Below are positions 21,580 through 30,582 of a stretch of DNA of 64,000 nt, piece after piece (position 1 is the stretch's first letter; every line of letters begins with the position of its first letter). Under the pieces are notes generated by a model. The model was given only the letters and a program-made list of their open reading frames with translations, made no database searches and was not told the DNA's origin. The stretch comes from Sphingobacteriaceae bacterium (GTDB lineage Bacteria; Bacteroidota; Bacteroidia; UBA7662). Made by a program: the position numbers and the translations under genes. The stretch spans positions 62,001-126,000 of the forward strand of contig JAUXNJ010000001.1 of the NCBI GenBank assembly GCA_030682795.1, read 5' to 3'.

Positions 21580-24500
21580 TTATTTGATTATCATCCGAAT
21601 AATAGCCTTCTCCTGTCGTGTAGCTCCCTGAACCTGCAATTCACAGAAGTATACGCCTGCACTCAAAGCTGCACCCTCAAACGAGTGCTCATGTTTGCCA
21701 GCACTTCTATCTCCTAATTCAAGTTCCGTAATGGCACGACCCGTTACATCTGTCACGATCATCTTCACACGTCCTGCTTCCGGCAACTCAAACGCAATGG
21801 TTGTTTCATGTCGGAAAGGATTTGGATAATTATTGAGCGATAATGCATTCGAAGTTGGAATATTCTGACTGCGCAGTCCAGGCATCAAAAGTTTGGTATT
21901 ATGGAGTGGTTGTGCAACCTCATCAGCAAATTCACTGCCTTCGCCAACCCAAATATCAAACTGATTAACACCATTTACCAACACATAGGCTTCTAATTCT
22001 AAAATCACTTGATCATTAGCAACGATCCATCCTCCCAAATCGAACCAACCAAACGAAATCACACCATTTGCAATGTTCACTTGTGTCTGATGCTCCAGCG
22101 CTGCATTCATGAGTTTGAGCGCCACAGGCTGCAATTGAGCAGCATTATAATGCAGTTTAAGCGACATCGCTCCTAAATGTGCCCCGTTTTCAATTCGAAT
22201 CGGCAATTTCACGAGTTTATTGGAAGTCGCAAGTAAATCCCCATCATTCACTAAAGCCACCTTAGGAGCCAAACGAACATTCCCCGGATTGTAGGACCCA
22301 TCCACATCGCCCACACAAATACCCTGCAAATTGATTGTTGTTAATTGTCCTTCCAAAACCTGTACACTTGCCTCATTAAATATCCAATCCCCAGCTGCAA
22401 AACCCGTTGGCGTACTCAAAGCGGCTTTCACGCCTAGATAACTTGATGCAGGCGGATTGAGCCAAGGATAAATGTAAATGTCTTCTCCAATACCATCTTT
22501 CTGCTCTAAACAAGGAACACCACTACCCCCACATGGTCCACTTTCACGGAACACCATGCCAATGTTATCAATGCTACTTCCAGCAGGCATTGGGCCATTA
22601 GGTGCCTGATTGAAGTAGGCCACCGGATTCATAGCCAAACTCCATTTACCATTCCCCAATGAGGTCATTTGACCCGGAGATGCTGGGTTCCCCCAATCAC
22701 CAACTACATATTGCCAACCAAAATTCGGGTCAATCGAGGCTCCTGAATGCATATGTATGCTGGTTGTTTGAGCCAGATTACCACCCAACAAGGCATCGAA
22801 ATACACCCGCAAATAATTTGGATTATTCAACAAGCCTGTAAAACGCTGTGCCACTTGCAACGCATCTGTACTATTAATAACATTATTGGCATTTACATCT
22901 GCTGCTTGCAATCGGAGACCTGTTAACGGTTGCAGACTTGTAAAATGACGTGCAATTCGCAAAGCATCTGTAGCATTAACACCACCCCATGGTTTGGTAG
23001 TAGAGGCCCGCAGGATATAATTACCTACTGGCGCATTGGTAAACAAATAATTACCATTTGCATCGGTTTGAACTGCGTCCCGTATGGTGTGATCTAAGGC
23101 ATTATAAGCAATCACATAGGTATTCGACATCGGCGTTTGTGCATTATTGGCATAACGTACTTGGCCACCTACAGTACCTGTTGGCTGATTGCCACCAAAA
23201 ACTTGGCTGTTCCATTTCCAAACACCACCTTGTCCATTATTGGCACTTAAGCCACCCGACCAGCCTACTGAGGGCCCAATAAACTTCACTGCGCCATGGT
23301 ACTCCCCATCAATGTTTGACCAGTTAACGTTATTCTCCAAATAAGCCGTTCCTAAAGGACCTGAAACCATCAAAATCAGATTGTTGGCATTCGGCACGTA
23401 GGCCATTGATAAAATATTCGCTAAACCTCCATAGGGTCGAGGAAGTTGCATCCAGCTGAATCCATCATCATTTGTCACATATAATTTAGACGTCGGCGCA
23501 TGATAAGCTGCACCTTGACCGCTGTCGGTAAAAGCAATGTAGTATTGACCGCCCCCTGCTGGTAAATTACGCGTTGTCCAACTTAAACCTTGGTTGTTAG
23601 TTACAAACAAACGACCACCCACTGTTGGCCAATACATGTTTCCATTAGGCGCAACACTCATCGTTGCAGTTGTCCCATATTCATCAAAAGCAAACGGCAT
23701 GGGTATGTTTGTAACCATTTGCCAAGTGTTGCCACCATTAGTGGTACGGTAAATTTCCCAAGCACCCGTTAACTGATTCGGGTCACCCACGACCACGCCT
23801 TCATTCTGATTCCAGAAATGTGAAAAATTCGGAAATCCACCGTTATTAAATACATTCAAGCGATTCCAGCTATTACCACCGTCAACCGTTTTATATAATC
23901 CTTGACTAGCAGAATCTCCAAATAAGGTGACAAATGCTATTTGCTCATCAAACGCCATGATATGAGAGGTGCCTAGTTGTGTCGTATTTGGAATACTGCC
24001 AGCATTCCAGTTGTTACCACCATCGGTAGTGCGATAGAAGTTTTGCAATAAACCAGTATTGGTTGATTTATCTCCTAAGGCCCAAGCCGTGCTATTACTA
24101 ACTGGTTCGATATTCCGGATTATTTGATTCGCAATTGGCTGGTTCAAATTCTGAAGCGACCAAGGACTCTGCGTAAAGCTTGATTGCGATACTGGCAAGT
24201 AACCAGAAAGATAAGCACAATTACCACCTGCGGTTTCAACATATAATCGGTAATCACCTGTAGTTGTTGCTGTGTAGCTGTTTCCATTAGCACCAGCAAT
24301 GGGCAAGTCGTTTAACAACCAAGAATAGGTGTATGCAGCTGAAGTGGCAGGCGCAAACGCCAGGCTAACACCCGACATTGAACCAATCAGCTCAGCCAAC
24401 TCCATACCTGATTCGTTGGATATAATCAGCACGGGAATGGTCACAGAATCACCTGTTAAAGGGTTGGTTATAAAGCTTGGAATAAATTGATTGATGCCAT

Positions 24501-27500
24501 TATTCACAACAATAACAGCTATAGCGCCAGCACGTTGGGCATTTAAAGCCTTATCACTAATTGGACAGGCTCCTCTGAATACCATCGCTACCTTACCTTG
24601 CAAGCTAGTTCCAGTAATCGGACCACAGGCCAATGAATCACCCACACTGCCATCCCTCGCAATCACCACATCACCAGTAAAATTAGCGGCAGTACCCTGC
24701 GGTACATTGATCCAACCACTACTTGCCAATACATTTCTGTAGGGAAGCTGACGTACAGGGCTTCCTTGAAGATTCAAAGTCAATAGCTGTTGAGGCACAG
24801 TGCTAAAATTAGTATTGACCGCCTGTCCTGCCTGATAATGCAAAGGTCCATTCACATTTACATTGGCCTGGTGAGGCATGGTCACTACCACATTAATACT
24901 ATTTGTGGTGTCAATACACCCATTTATAAAATGTACAACAGCTACATATTCTCCGTCTGAACGGGCATCCACATTAGTTCCATTCACTTGCGGAATGAAT
25001 CGGCCATTCACAAACCATTCAACAAAGTTAATTGGATCACCACTATTCACAGTTAAGGTTACAAACTGGTCTAAACATAAATTCGTATTGCCCTGAGCCA
25101 CCAATGTAGCTTGACAAGTAGCAGATTGCGGAACCATTACTGCAGCTATGGTAAACACCGTTTGGGATCCAAAACCGTTAGTAGACCAAACACCGTTGCT
25201 GCTAAATACGGCAGTAGTTGGCTCACCAGTATAGTTGTTCGTAGCTATGTAATTACTCAAGGGGTCTGTATTAGCAAATACTTCAAAAGCAAATCCTGTA
25301 TAAGTCACAGCGAATAAATAGCGTGCACCATTTGTAAGTGTAACCCCTGGCTGGTTTGTTACGTTGTCAAACATAAGCATACTGCGCTCCTGGCTAATAC
25401 CATTGTCGGGATATAAATAATCGCCTCTTCCTACTTGAGTCATCTCATTTACCTCCACAAAGCCGTTTGAATCTAGATCGTCCCAACGATAAACAGCACC
25501 TTCTATGAGCTGATTGGTCAATACTGTTGGCGCGGTAGCAGTATACGAGAACTTCAATTCACTTACTTTCATCCGCCCAGCTTGAGGGGCTTTAAACCAA
25601 TTACCAACTGTGTAAGGCCCAGCTACCGAAGGACGGTTACCATTACCAAAAATATTCAAGCCACCTGATCCATTTAAACTAGAAGCAGCATACAAATCCT
25701 GGGTGATCCGCAAATCCTGGAAATAAACATTGTCGGCGGGGCCCTCATCACTTCCTATGCTTGGTAGCACTTCATAACGAATACGGTGGTTACCAATACC
25801 CAAGACCGATAAATCAAACGGCGCAGTCACCGCAACATGCGATTGACCTAAACCAATGCTCGCGCCGCTTACATTTTGAAAATAAACCACATCCTGTGAG
25901 GAGCCATTGCGCCACACTTGCACATTTAGATTAAAGCTGGTAGATGATAAACCGATGTTCTGTACCTGCGCACCTAAGTCAACTACGTAATCGCCCGGCT
26001 GGCTAACTAAGTTTAATGGAAGCGCAAAAGCCAAAGGCTTGATTACATCGCCACTACCTATTACCAAATCTAAATTGTTGCCCCCAAACTTATTGCCTAT
26101 AAATGCTCTTACCAAGCCATTATCAATCATAGGTCTTAGATTGACACCATCAAAGGCAGAAATCATGACCACCGGAATGGTAACATTGGCCCCGTTCACA
26201 CCACCCGACATATTGATGAGACCTGGTTGATTGTTTACGATAATTACACCTACAGCACCAGCTCGTTGAGCCGAGAGTGCTTTTAAACCAAACTCACATG
26301 CGCCACGATACAATACTACAATCTTACCTTTCAATTCAGCCGTATTCATTAAAGTGCCATCACAGCCTAAAGAGTCGCTTTGCGCTGCCCTACCAACAAC
26401 TAATGGTCCTTGAACCGCAATGGTATCAATCTCATAATTCCAAAGACTGCTTGCTCCTGCACCCAAGCCGTAGCCATAACTACCAGCTGCGGTTGCTGGA
26501 TCGGTGATATCAAATGTAATGCGAGCAGGATGTGTCCCTAAAGCAGCGAACGTGCGGAAGAGAATTTGATTGCCGAAAGTAGTTTGACCAGCACTATCCG
26601 TAACAAAGGTCCGTGCATAATACTGTGTTGCAGGAAGTAAATTGCTGATAGCCGCATAAATGCTGTTTCCTGTGCTGGAATCAACAACCGACATGTTCGC
26701 CAAGGTTGGAGCTGGGTTCTGACCATAAACAACTCCTTTTGAAACAAAATTGGCACCTGAAGTGTGGCTGCCTACAACAACTGCACTGCTGAAACCACGA
26801 CTTCTAATCGCATCAGTGAAGATGGATTGGCTTCCAGCAACATTACAGTTTCCAAATAAATAGGCAGGCAAAACGGTTGCTGTGCTAGGCACTACCGTAT
26901 GCCGATTTGGCCCTATTGCACATGCTGCAGGAACCACTTCGCTATAATCCACATAAAAACCAGTGGTTGTATCTAAAAATCCCCAATCATTTCCATTCAC
27001 AAACTTATACTCAACGGCTGTACCTGCAGCAATTTGAGCAGTGTACGTATATACATTAGGCAAGGTAGGGTGCGCAGTCATTGGACTATTAGCGGGATTC
27101 CAACCCTGGAAATTACCAGCCATGTGAACCCCCGTTGACCGAATAACCTGACCCGTCATGTCAACTTGGAAGGTTACTGCTACCAATGGACCCAAACTAG
27201 TATTGCACTGACCATAAATAACTGCCGGTAAAACCACATCGCTTGTAGGCACCACCAAGCCACGGTTACCACTATTATTAAAATTACACGCGGATGGAAC
27301 TTGCTCCTCACTTCCCCATGCATTGCCATTGATAAACTTATACTCAACAGACGTACCTTCAGGAATACTTGCAGTATGTTCCCAAACATTGTTACCAGCG
27401 TTGATCATTGAGGTCGAACCCGGGTTCCAAACAGGATTTTGGAAACTTCCCGCAATGTGAACGCCTAAAGGAGATACATTAATACCGGTCATGTTTACGC

Positions 27501-29433
27501 GGAAAGTCACGTTGCGATTCACCGGCATGGTTGACAACCCACTCACCACCAAACTAAAGTGCTGTGCACTTGCTAAGCTCCCCTTATGAGATACCCGCAC
27601 CAGATAGTTACCCGGCGTCGGATTATTGAGCAAAATCTGCTCCACATTATCGCGGTTGTTGTCTCCTGATGTAGCTGCGGCAGCAGGATTTGCTGGGTTC
27701 AATACCCATGGTTGGAATTGGGTAGAATCACTCAATCGAATGATGCGTACATCCAAATTATTTATCAAATTACTTGTTGTGCCATTTAAGATGTACGGAG
27801 CTGTGGGTGCAGCAGGATCTGTCCACGACAAAGTCGCTTTCAAAGGTGCTGTACCATCGGTATAAAGGTTGTAGGTATACGTTGCACCGTTGGCTAAAGA
27901 GGCTTCGACAAAATCATGCTGGCCATTCTTTCTAGCTACCACATCCGAGGCCTTGGCTGTATTCATCAAACCCCATCCATAAACATAATCAGGACCAGGG
28001 TTCGTGCCGGCTTCATCGGCTGTATGAATGGCAATTGCCTTCAAGGTTGCTGCTCTCATTATGTTATCGCTATACAACTGCTTATGCCGCTGCTGCAACA
28101 AGGCCAATGAACCGGTCACCGTTGGTGAGGCCATGGACGTGCCATTCCAGCTGTCATAACTGGTATTGCTTGTTGCGGTTGCAGAATACACTTGCACACC
28201 CTTGGCAACTAAATCCGGCTTTATTCGGCCGTCGTCCGTTGGACCCCAACCATGAAAAGAGCTCGAAATTACCTGAGAAGCATTGGTGTAGCCACCGGAA
28301 ATCCCTTGAACCGCCCCTACAGTTAAAACATTTTTAGAAACACCTGCATGTGAAATGCAATCAAAGCCACTCGTACCACCTGCTTTCTCACGCGTAAGCG
28401 ATGAGTTAACCCAAACCGAACCATTCCAAACCCTGTGAGATGTACCCGCAGCCGGACCATAATTCCGATCATTTCCAGCGGCCTTGACAATTAAATAATT
28501 AGGAGCACTGGCAGCAATTAAATCCCAATCGCGTGATTCTATTGAATACCGTCCATAATTTTCATCAACAGACCCAGTAGTGCTTCCAAACCAATACCAA
28601 TTATCACCTGTATTTTCAATATTTCCAAAATACCAGCCAGTAATTATTCCGTAAGAATGATTAGAAAGCAACATACCTGCAGAAGCTGCATTAGCCATTT
28701 CTGCTTCGTCGTTACTCCAATCATAGGCATTCAAAACACCTTGATAAGCCATTCCTTTTGCAAGAGGATCTGTACCAGCTCCAATCATGGTAGCAGCCAC
28801 ATGGGTTGCATGGCTATTCAGTATATTCGCGCCATCAGCCATGGTAACTCTCCCGCCAAACTCTTGGTGGGACACCCTCACAGCTCCACCATCCCATTCC
28901 CCCATTGGGATACCTTGTCCTGATAATGACAAACCTGACAAGCCACCTGGCCAAACCTTGTGAGTTGAAATGGTTTGTGCACCCCCGACATTTGACGTCA
29001 CATAAAAAAGAGGTGCGGCATTACCATTAAAACTTTTATATTGTGCTATGGTATTTCCTGAAACTATTTGAGTCATCGGAATGACATCCGTTTTGCTTAG
29101 AAGGAGCTGTTGCGCCGCTCTATACTCGCTTTGAAATCTCGCAGCTAATTGGGCTAAGGCTACTCTATCGGTAGGGTCTCCTTTGTCGAAAGCAGCTAAC
29201 TGCGCAGTATTGCTAACTTTAAACATGCCTGTTTGATCTTCAAGCTGTTGAAGAATTGGCAATTCAAGCGCATTAGATTTATTGAAAACAGATTGAATTT
29301 CTGAACTTGCCTCAGTACGGGGCGCAGCAGGTGCTTGGGAGGACAACAACACACTGTTTTGAGCATAGGCAACAAAAGCTGTAGCTAGGCACGCGCAGGC
29401 AGTCATCAGCGCGACTGACAATAATCTTTTCAT
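21580..29433 (-). CDS. multidomain secreted subtilase (S8) with CBM-like repeats, two PA domains, Ig-like module, BNR/Ycf48-like propeller, dockerin-like and cohesin-like modules, T9SS type A domain
   Basis: Catalytic segments GEWDGGAVRVSHQEFGGR, NSHATHVAATMIGAG, NGTSMASPTVTGSLALLQ; PA domains (KGKIVVLYRGACEFGLKALSAQRAGAVGVIIVNN, QGKVAMVFRGACPISDKALNAQRAGAIAVIVVNN); YRTTDGGNNWNAGSIPN; CTD NYPNPFRHETTIAFELPEAGRVKMIVTDVTGRAITEL. Start at 29433 (MKRLLSVALM) preferred over 29460. Confidence 0.92.
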   Translation of the reverse strand: MKRLLSVALMTACACLATAFVAYAQNSVLLSSQAPAAPRTEASSEIQSVFNKSNALELPILQQLEDQTGMFKVSNTAQLAAFDKGDPTDRVALAQLAARFQSEYRAAQQLLLSKTDVIPMTQIVSGNTIAQYKSFNGNAAPLFYVTSNVGGAQTISTHKVWPGGLSGLSLSGQGIPMGEWDGGAVRVSHQEFGGRVTMADGANILNSHATHVAATMIGAGTDPLAKGMAYQGVLNAYDWSNDEAEMANAASAGMLLSNHSYGIITGWYFGNIENTGDNWYWFGSTTGSVDENYGRYSIESRDWDLIAASAPNYLIVKAAGNDRNYGPAAGTSHRVWNGSVWVNSSLTREKAGGTSGFDCISHAGVSKNVLTVGAVQGISGGYTNASQVISSSFHGWGPTDDGRIKPDLVAKGVQVYSATATSNTSYDSWNGTSMASPTVTGSLALLQQRHKQLYSDNIMRAATLKAIAIHTADEAGTNPGPDYVYGWGLMNTAKASDVVARKNGQHDFVEASLANGATYTYNLYTDGTAPLKATLSWTDPAAPTAPYILNGTTSNLINNLDVRIIRLSDSTQFQPWVLNPANPAAAATSGDNNRDNVEQILLNNPTPGNYLVRVSHKGSLASAQHFSLVVSGLSTMPVNRNVTFRVNMTGINVSPLGVHIAGSFQNPVWNPGSTSMINAGNNVWEHTASIPEGTSVEYKFINGNAWGSEEQVPSACNFNNSGNRGLVVPTSDVVLPAVIYGQCNTSLGPLVAVTFQVDMTGQVIRSTGVHMAGNFQGWNPANSPMTAHPTLPNVYTYTAQIAAGTAVEYKFVNGNDWGFLDTTTGFYVDYSEVVPAACAIGPNRHTVVPSTATVLPAYLFGNCNVAGSQSIFTDAIRSRGFSSAVVVGSHTSGANFVSKGVVYGQNPAPTLANMSVVDSSTGNSIYAAISNLLPATQYYARTFVTDSAGQTTFGNQILFRTFAALGTHPARITFDITDPATAAGSYGYGLGAGASSLWNYEIDTIAVQGPLVVGRAAQSDSLGCDGTLMNTAELKGKIVVLYRGACEFGLKALSAQRAGAVGVIIVNNQPGLINMSGGVNGANVTIPVVMISAFDGVNLRPMIDNGLVRAFIGNKFGGNNLDLVIGSGDVIKPLAFALPLNLVSQPGDYVVDLGAQVQNIGLSSTSFNLNVQVWRNGSSQDVVYFQNVSGASIGLGQSHVAVTAPFDLSVLGIGNHRIRYEVLPSIGSDEGPADNVYFQDLRITQDLYAASSLNGSGGLNIFGNGNRPSVAGPYTVGNWFKAPQAGRMKVSELKFSYTATAPTVLTNQLIEGAVYRWDDLDSNGFVEVNEMTQVGRGDYLYPDNGISQERSMLMFDNVTNQPGVTLTNGARYLFAVTYTGFAFEVFANTDPLSNYIATNNYTGEPTTAVFSSNGVWSTNGFGSQTVFTIAAVMVPQSATCQATLVAQGNTNLCLDQFVTLTVNSGDPINFVEWFVNGRFIPQVNGTNVDARSDGEYVAVVHFINGCIDTTNSINVVVTMPHQANVNVNGPLHYQAGQAVNTNFSTVPQQLLTLNLQGSPVRQLPYRNVLASSGWINVPQGTAANFTGDVVIARDGSVGDSLACGPITGTSLQGKVAMVFRGACPISDKALNAQRAGAIAVIVVNNGINQFIPSFITNPLTGDSVTIPVLIISNESGMELAELIGSMSGVSLAFAPATSAAYTYSWLLNDLPIAGANGNSYTATTTGDYRLYVETAGGNCAYLSGYLPVSQSSFTQSPWSLQNLNQPIANQIIRNIEPVSNSTAWALGDKSTNTGLLQNFYRTTDGGNNWNAGSIPNTTQLGTSHIMAFDEQIAFVTLFGDSASQGLYKTVDGGNSWNRLNVFNNGGFPNFSHFWNQNEGVVVGDPNQLTGAWEIYRTTNGGNTWQMVTNIPMPFAFDEYGTTATMSVAPNGNMYWPTVGGRLFVTNNQGLSWTTRNLPAGGGQYYIAFTDSGQGAAYHAPTSKLYVTNDDGFSWMQLPRPYGGLANILSMAYVPNANNLILMVSGPLGTAYLENNVNWSNIDGEYHGAVKFIGPSVGWSGGLSANNGQGGVWKWNSQVFGGNQPTGTVGGQVRYANNAQTPMSNTYVIAYNALDHTIRDAVQTDANGNYLFTNAPVGNYILRASTTKPWGGVNATDALRIARHFTSLQPLTGLRLQAADVNANNVINSTDALQVAQRFTGLLNNPNYLRVYFDALLGGNLAQTTSIHMHSGASIDPNFGWQYVVGDWGNPASPGQMTSLGNGKWSLAMNPVAYFNQAPNGPMPAGSSIDNIGMVFRESGPCGGSGVPCLEQKDGIGEDIYIYPWLNPPASSYLGVKAALSTPTGFAAGDWIFNEASVQVLEGQLTTINLQGICVGDVDGSYNPGNVRLAPKVALVNDGDLLATSNKLVKLPIRIENGAHLGAMSLKLHYNAAQLQPVALKLMNAALEHQTQVNIANGVISFGWFDLGGWIVANDQVILELEAYVLVNGVNQFDIWVGEGSEFADEVAQPLHNTKLLMPGLRSQNIPTSNALSLNNYPNPFRHETTIAFELPEAGRVKMIVTDVTGRAITELELGDRSAGKHEHSFEGAALSAGVYFCELQVQGATRQEKAIIRMIIK
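22831..22995 (-). other. dockerin-like module inside the subtilase
   Basis: WGGVNATDALRIARHFTSLQPLTGLRLQAADVNANNVINSTDALQVAQRFTGL, homologous to the module at 15037-15199. Confidence 0.7.
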
Positions 29434-29640
29434 AGGTTTCAAAGTTTGGTCCTTTCGCAAGAGCGACTCCTGCTAAGATGTGCTAATTACGAAAACTTTA
29501 CTTCCACCCACAATACCCAAAAGAGGGTAATTTTGAAATTTTTTGACAACTGATGGAAGCCTTTAAATATAGCCATTCTTTTAACTTTCCTCATAAGCCT
29601 TATTTGGCCTACCAAAACTACTAAGCAGTATGTAATGACC

Positions 29641-29800
29641 CCAAAGCTCCAATCCGCTGCGCGGTCTTGCTTTTTTCCACCGCTCGAAACTTCATCCGGA
29701 TTGACTCGCTGTGCTCGTCCATCCGACACAGCTCTATTAAAAAACACACCCAAAGCTCCAGTCCGCTGCGCGGTCCGTGCTTTTTTCATTTCTCGAAATT
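29641..29800. repeat. imperfect ~45-bp direct repeat, two copies 109 bp apart
   Basis: ccaaagctccaatccgctgcgcggtcttgcttttttccaccgctcgaaa (29641) vs ccaaagctccagtccgctgcgcggtccgtgcttttttcatttctcgaaa (29750). Confidence 0.8.
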
Positions 29801-29828
29801 TGCTCAAGCTTGCAGCTTAGCAAATTTC
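29795..29828. repeat. inverted repeat abutting the intron 3' end
   Basis: gaaatttgct-c-aagct-tgc-agctt-agcaaatttc: 10-bp perfect outer arms plus 5-bp inner arms. Confidence 0.8.
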
Positions 29829-29833
29829 TCTAA

Positions 29834-30469
29834 ATCGAGTAGGAAGGTAGGGATTAATTCCCTACCTGTCCTCTCACACCACCGTACGTACCGTTCGGTA
29901 TACGGCGGTTCCTTGCTTTACACCATTGAAGGCGTGTTTGACATTGCTTTCAGTTATCCCCTTTGGTTTTTATTTTGAATCGCTCTTATCTATTTTTCGG
30001 ATTCCGTCCTATTCTTGTGATAAGGAGCCTCGCTAACGAGCATCTGATACATGGCCATGTTGGTAACATTCAATTACTGTCAAGCTGCAAGGTTCGGGCC
30101 TTCCTAGATTAACTAGTAATCCAGTACTATGCCCGCTGCTGACTCCTCATGGCAAGCTTTACTCCGTGTTTCAAAATTCATCTCCACACGTCCATGAGGC
30201 CTCCCGTGGTAAGACAATCTACTTTCACGCCATCTCCCCGCCTCATTTACACTCCAATGTCCGTGTAATCTTTGGACTTCGACTTGTTTGGCAGCCTCAT
30301 CCCATTGGATATGCCTGATAAGGTTCGTGTTCCTCGGGGCAGCGTTTTGCCGCCGGCTTCCTTCAGATTCCACCTCACGATGGACACCCTTGCCTTAAGC
30401 TAGTGGTTGGCGATTACATACCCCCACAGTGGACTTGCACCACCTAGTTGATTGCCATGCACGGCACAC
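29834..30469 (-). mobile_element. ORF-less group II intron, probably group IIC-like, about 636 nt
   Basis: Minus strand starts GTGTGCCGTGCATGGCAATCAACTAGGTGGTGCAAGTCCACTGTGGGG (domain I start) and contains GGTGGAATCTGAAGGAAGCCGGCGGCAAA. 32-nt domain V ACCGCCGTATACCGAACGGTACGTACGGTGGT (29878-29909). Domain VI hairpin GGTAGGG-AATTAA-TCCCTACC. Ends CCTACTCGAT. No reverse transcriptase ORF. Confidence 0.85.
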
Positions 30470-30470
30470 A

Positions 30471-30503
30471 AAAAAAAGCTCCACTCTTTCGAGTGGAGCT
30501 TTG
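30471..30503 (-). terminator. rho-independent terminator of the tRNA-Val gene
   Basis: minus strand AAAGCTCCACTC-GAAA-GAGTGGAGCTTTTTTTT immediately downstream of the tRNA. Confidence 0.85.
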
Positions 30504-30507
30504 GGTG

Positions 30508-30582
30508 TGGGCGCACACGGATTCGAACCGCGGACCCTCTGCTTGTAAGGCAGATGCTCTGAACCAGCTGAGCTATGCGCCC
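30508..30582 (-). tRNA. tRNA-Val (anticodon TAC)
   Basis: GGGCGCATAGCTCAGCTGGTTCAGAGCATCTGCCTTACAAGCAGAGGGTCCGCGGTTCGAATCCGTGTGCGCCCA: cloverleaf with paired GGGCGCA/TGCGCCC acceptor and CTTACAA anticodon loop. Confidence 0.96.

Follow-up and report, generated by a model that had tools for sequence, protein, structure and literature searches.

The Oceanobacillus iheyensis intron, whose host belongs to the Firmicutes, has the class IIC architecture and a domain V (D5) with a CGC triad, and it is to this ribozyme that the intron described here was initially likened. The TeI3 introns of Thermosynechococcus elongatus, members of a group II class other than IIC, offer a parallel in lifestyle. They are ORF-less introns, 17 copies derived from one ORF deletion, that retain remnants of the ORF in domain IV (D4) and are mobilised in trans by the IEP of a related intron, as tested experimentally (PMC2882425). 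IIC ribozymes studied elsewhere splice protein-free in vitro, mainly by hydrolysis, and at 5 mM Mg2+ a IIC ribozyme was inactive without IEP and spliced mostly as a lariat with it (PMC7161350). The trans-served ORF-less lifestyle is already known but rare, and the intron behind a tRNA-Val gene that we describe here from a Sphingobacteriaceae bacterium fits the pattern as a fresh example.

The intron occupies positions 29834-30469 on the minus strand of the window (the whole stretch of 64,000 nucleotides that was analysed). We confirm it as a genuine group II ribozyme intron; it belongs to class IIC and no longer carries a reverse transcriptase (RT) gene. From sequence comparison we further consider it likely to be an intact, non-autonomous intron whose splicing and mobility, if any, would be served in trans by a class-C maturase encoded on contig C35 of the same genome. 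It resembles the TeI3 introns in the deletion of the D4 ORF with remnants left behind and in the presence of a related IEP, and differs from them in copy number and in their experimental characterisation.

Identity and domain layout of the intron

The 636-nt element is complete, running from GTGTGCC at 30469 to CCTACTCGAT at 29834, and both ends are identical to those of the RT-encoding copy on C35; they agree with the group II consensus of GUGYG at the 5' end and AY at the 3' end (GTGTG..GAT). Rfam searches returned three group II matches, all above the curated gathering thresholds: RF02001 (group-II-D1D4-3) to D1 at 30384-30214 (143.8 bits, E 7.7e-30), RF01998 (group-II-D1D4-1) to D2/D3 at 30183-30097 (42.5 bits) and RF00029 (Intron_gpII) to D5/D6 at 29910-29834 (45.6 bits). 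The minimum-energy fold of the isolated 636 nt has a six-domain layout at -206.9 kcal/mol (z = -3.2), and none of 20 shuffled sequences was equally stable. Together, the Rfam matches and the fold place domains D1 to D6, with a conserved D5, as expected of a group II intron. Domain I spans 30206-30469 (its 3' limit being approximate), as drawn from RF02001 and the consensus structure; the domain II hairpin, seen in both the consensus and minimum-energy folds, lies at 30145-30199; and domain III (30096-30134), with an 8-bp distal stem (GGGC..GCCC), is supported by RF01998 and by covariation with the RT copy. Domain IV (29910-30092, about 180 nt), from which the RT ORF is deleted, is closed by CCUUGC/GCAAGG and is followed by the 32-nt domain V with its CGC triad (29878-29909) and by domain VI with the 3' splice end (29834-29877), all on the minus strand. 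No RT ORF is present in the intron, the longest minus-strand ORF lying fully within it being 86 aa. The initial annotation had thus correctly drawn the limits, domain V and VI hairpins, short domain IV and lack of a maturase, and its proposal, which was to stand or fall with covariance-model matches and the presence of D1 and D5, is borne out, as is its assignment to group IIC, for which the terminator insertion, the EBS elements and the class-C relative speak.

The exon-binding sites were both placed through covariation with the exons across relatives. A comparison of flanks and loops in 21 RT-encoding introns identified EBS1 as a tetramer in a loop that can pair, in nearly every relative, with the four bases ending the 5' exon. 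For EBS3, a single column of the alignment was complementary to the base opening the 3' exon in all 14 introns compared. In the window intron EBS3 is kept (A, intron nt 223, at 30247) and is complementary to IBS3 (T, at 29833), while EBS1 (CAAA, intron nt 180-183, at 30287-30290) pairs with IBS1 (TTTT, at 30470-30473) in three of four positions, leaving a C.U mismatch at -1. The intron therefore has the single short EBS1 and one-nucleotide EBS3-IBS3 pairing of class IIC, with one mismatch in its own EBS1 pairing. Its description as a minimal ribozyme candidate goes too far: 636 nt with a D4 of about 180 nt is a typical size for ORF-less introns, and one splicing element, EBS1-IBS1, is mismatched at -1.

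Insertion behind the tRNA-Val terminator

Upstream of the intron on the minus strand lies a tRNA-Val (UAC) gene (30507-30582; ARAGORN; Rfam RF00005, 71.5 bits), followed by its intrinsic terminator (30475-30502), a 12-bp stem-loop and T-tract that served as the insertion target. The T-tract directly abuts the 5' end of the intron, as had been noticed initially and as is characteristic of class IIC insertion. In a congeneric genome (G006, locus L120) the corresponding tRNA-Val locus is 89% identical and lacks the intron: its empty site reads GAGTGGAGCTTTTTTCATTTAGAGAAATTTGCC, where the window reads GAGTGGAGCTTTTTTTT-intron-TTAGAGAAATTTGCT. The simplest reading of these sequences is that the intron was gained in the window's lineage, entering behind the terminator, and loss from G006 instead is possible; no further copies of the intron were found in the 17 family genomes searched. 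Given its position beyond a terminator, the intron is probably seldom transcribed and does the tRNA gene no harm.

The tRNA-Val tail (CACACCCAAAGCTCCA..GCTTTTTT) is repeated in inverted form shortly downstream (window 29640-29835 and 30491-30509), with two inverted tails in the window and three in G006, and the intron lies within this palindrome; a further genome (G005) has a similar inverted repeat built from its own tail sequence. Positions 21580-29460 of the window encode a protein of 2626 aa that matches subtilisin-like proteases and probably carries a sorting domain at its C-terminus.

The RT-encoding relative on contig C35

The intact RT-bearing relative with the same ends, whose search the initial annotation had suggested, does exist. 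The genome (3.14 Mb, 47 contigs) contains exactly one RT-encoding relative, a 1901-nt intron at G000:C35:171876-173776. Besides its identical ends, it shares 94% identity with the window intron over nt 1-346 and 80 of 81 positions over D5-D6 (the last 81 nt), and it too sits after a terminator, here downstream of ATP synthase genes (as identified from the sequence). It differs in carrying a 464-aa RT/maturase in D4, in the distal part of D3 and the base of D4, and in its EBS1 (ATAA rather than CAAA). The protein has intact RVT_1 and GIIM domains and a YADD motif, matches TIGR04416 at 420 bits and finds its best solved relatives among the group II maturases (7uim, and 6ar1, the GsI-IIC RT); RVT_1 and GIIM were the only domains found, with no endonuclease domain, and the IEP is of class C. 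No second group II maturase was found in the 3.1-Mb genome. The one other RVT_1 match, on contig C16 (L008:2710-3867), is a retron/defence-type RT whose best PADLOC models are RT-Protease_XI (290 bits) and RT-TIR_XII (265 bits), and whose gene adjoins one for a DnaB-like helicase.

The differences between the two introns over nt 1-346 are unevenly distributed: intron nt 1-96 (window 30374-30469) are identical, all 20 differences falling within nt 97-346, for which our own arithmetic gives a chance of about 0.0015 if differences were evenly spread, and a gene-conversion tract over nt 1-96 is possible. We rejected a special homogenisation of D5-D6 between the two copies, since these domains are nearly identical in remoter RT introns (L017, L010) as well.

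Preservation of the core and origin of domain IV

The ribozyme core was assessed against a D1-D3 consensus structure derived from 21 RT-encoding introns, the window copy excluded. The window copy retains all 103 consensus pairs, whereas the C35 RT copy retains 100 of 103 and accounts for all the broken pairs; five pairs are changed on both sides between the two copies and still pair (compensatory changes). In simulations with 20 random substitutions a mean of 94.6 pairs was retained, and all 103 survived in 0 of 5000 trials. The D3 and D4 base of the window copy are re-paired rather than broken, and its branch in the D1-D3 tree is shorter than that of the RT copy (0.019 vs 0.046). Pair counts for remoter ORF-less introns were lower, but their alignment was forced (keeplength) and they were left out. 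These data show that the core has been kept under structure-preserving evolution, although the preserved structure could stem partly from recent insertion.

Domain IV retains traces of an ORF. On the minus strand, a leader (AGTAATTGAATGTTACC) is followed by CACAAGAATAGGACGGAATCCGAA and then GGATAACTGAAAGCAA, all three of which have counterparts, similarly spaced, in the RT leader and N-terminus of relatives that encode an RT; stops break the frame. The first relic (KNRTESE, 29996-30016), itself stop-interrupted, has a 24-nt match to many RT-encoding introns, and the second (GGATAACTGAAAGCAA.., 29942-29959) is colinear with it. The intron thus derives from an RT-encoding ancestor by deletion of about 1.3 kb of D4, and its D4 is an RT-encoding D4 lacking most of the RT ORF.

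Other ORF-less IIC introns and a shared domain IV

Surveying D1 and D5 in 296 genomes of the class, and searching plasmids as well, we identified several other ORF-less IIC introns: one of 851 nt (G115), one of 631 nt (L146:822-1452, G476:C1) in a genome that also has RT copies, one of 640 nt on Bacillus smithii pDSM4216, and two of 649-650 nt on Persicobacter psychrovividus pPP7 and pPP2. The G476 intron is 100% identical to several local RT-encoding copies over its last 89 nt (D5-D6) and just 76% over D1-D3. Many other D5 matches in G476 were rejected as ORF-less introns, most being RT copies broken at contig ends, which leaves the one on C1 as the only ORF-less copy there, and copies in G777 and G841 that match the Persicobacter intron were likewise rejected because both encode RTs. 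A lone D5-D6 at L143:2458-2541 (G063), with no D1 or RT upstream, is apparently a 5'-truncated intron copy.

The Persicobacter pair, 99.8% identical behind different terminators, indicates that an ORF-less IIC intron has moved recently. Like the window intron, these introns lack an RT, follow terminators, have an RT-encoding copy in the same genome (on pPP5) and an EBS1 of CAAA, and share a D4 segment; unlike it, they are present in two copies, have perfect EBS1-IBS1 pairing (exon TTTG) and are only about 68% identical in D1-D3, where they group with Persicobacter RT introns. As sole query against 7.3 Gb of plasmid sequence, the window D4 matched only the Persicobacter ORF-less introns (67 nt, 79%, E 0.003 for the plasmid collection); the D4 leader concerned reads CAGATGCYCG..CTCCTTA..AAATAGRTAAGAG. 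With the common RT relic omitted, the D4 flanks score 25 against Persicobacter, whereas the highest score among 24 RT-encoding stretches is 11.5; shuffled flanks score 10.3 +/- 2.3, with 0 of 5000 reaching 25. The window D4 was not found in 335 class genomes, and a scan of viral contigs for the D4 motif gave nothing with one pattern and, with the other, six chance matches lacking intron sequence. In the D1-D3 tree, however, the window and Persicobacter cores each join the RT copy of their own genome, with 100% support in both cases. This suggests that the core has had a different history from D4.

Alternative explanations

The intron might be dead, having arrived as a full IIC intron, lost its ORF in situ and become inert and decaying. 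The RT relics in D4, the mismatch at IBS1 -1 and the existence of one copy only would all fit such a history. Against it stand the 103 consensus pairs, all kept and more than in the RT-encoding relative, the shorter branch, the re-pairing of D3 and the D4 base, and a D4 that ORF-less copies of another genus share; we consider decay unlikely. A still less likely reading is that it self-splices by hydrolysis without any protein. The stable 636-nt fold and the protein-free splicing of other IIC ribozymes in vitro agree with this, whereas the inactivity without IEP at 5 mM Mg2+, the mainly lariat splicing with it (PMC7161350) and a suitable IEP encoded in the same genome speak against it.

The shared D4 raises the further prospect of a maturase-less IIC lineage in which D4 travels among Bacteroidota while D1-D2 and D5-D6 are swapped with those of the local RT-encoding driver. 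The exclusive plasmid match to Persicobacter, the flank score far above those of RT-encoding stretches and shuffles, and the clustering of the cores with local RT copies favor this idea, which we nevertheless hold as doubtful: the common stretch is short, restricted to two genera and absent among the 335 class genomes, and an RT-encoding subfamily outside our sampling could bear the same D4. We prefer an intact non-autonomous intron, with the C35 class-C maturase as the putative source of any splicing and mobility. The C.U mismatch may weaken splicing of the window copy, and the genome, with its single ORF-less copy, shows no direct evidence that the intron moved recently.

Significance

By pairing a single ORF-less intron with a single driver in a genome of 3.1 Mb, this bacterium provides a clean natural system for IIC splicing and mobility in trans. 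If the lineage defined by the shared D4 is real, it would represent a family of non-autonomous introns that re-tune their cores to local drivers, in effect a modular ribozyme that parasitises another parasite.
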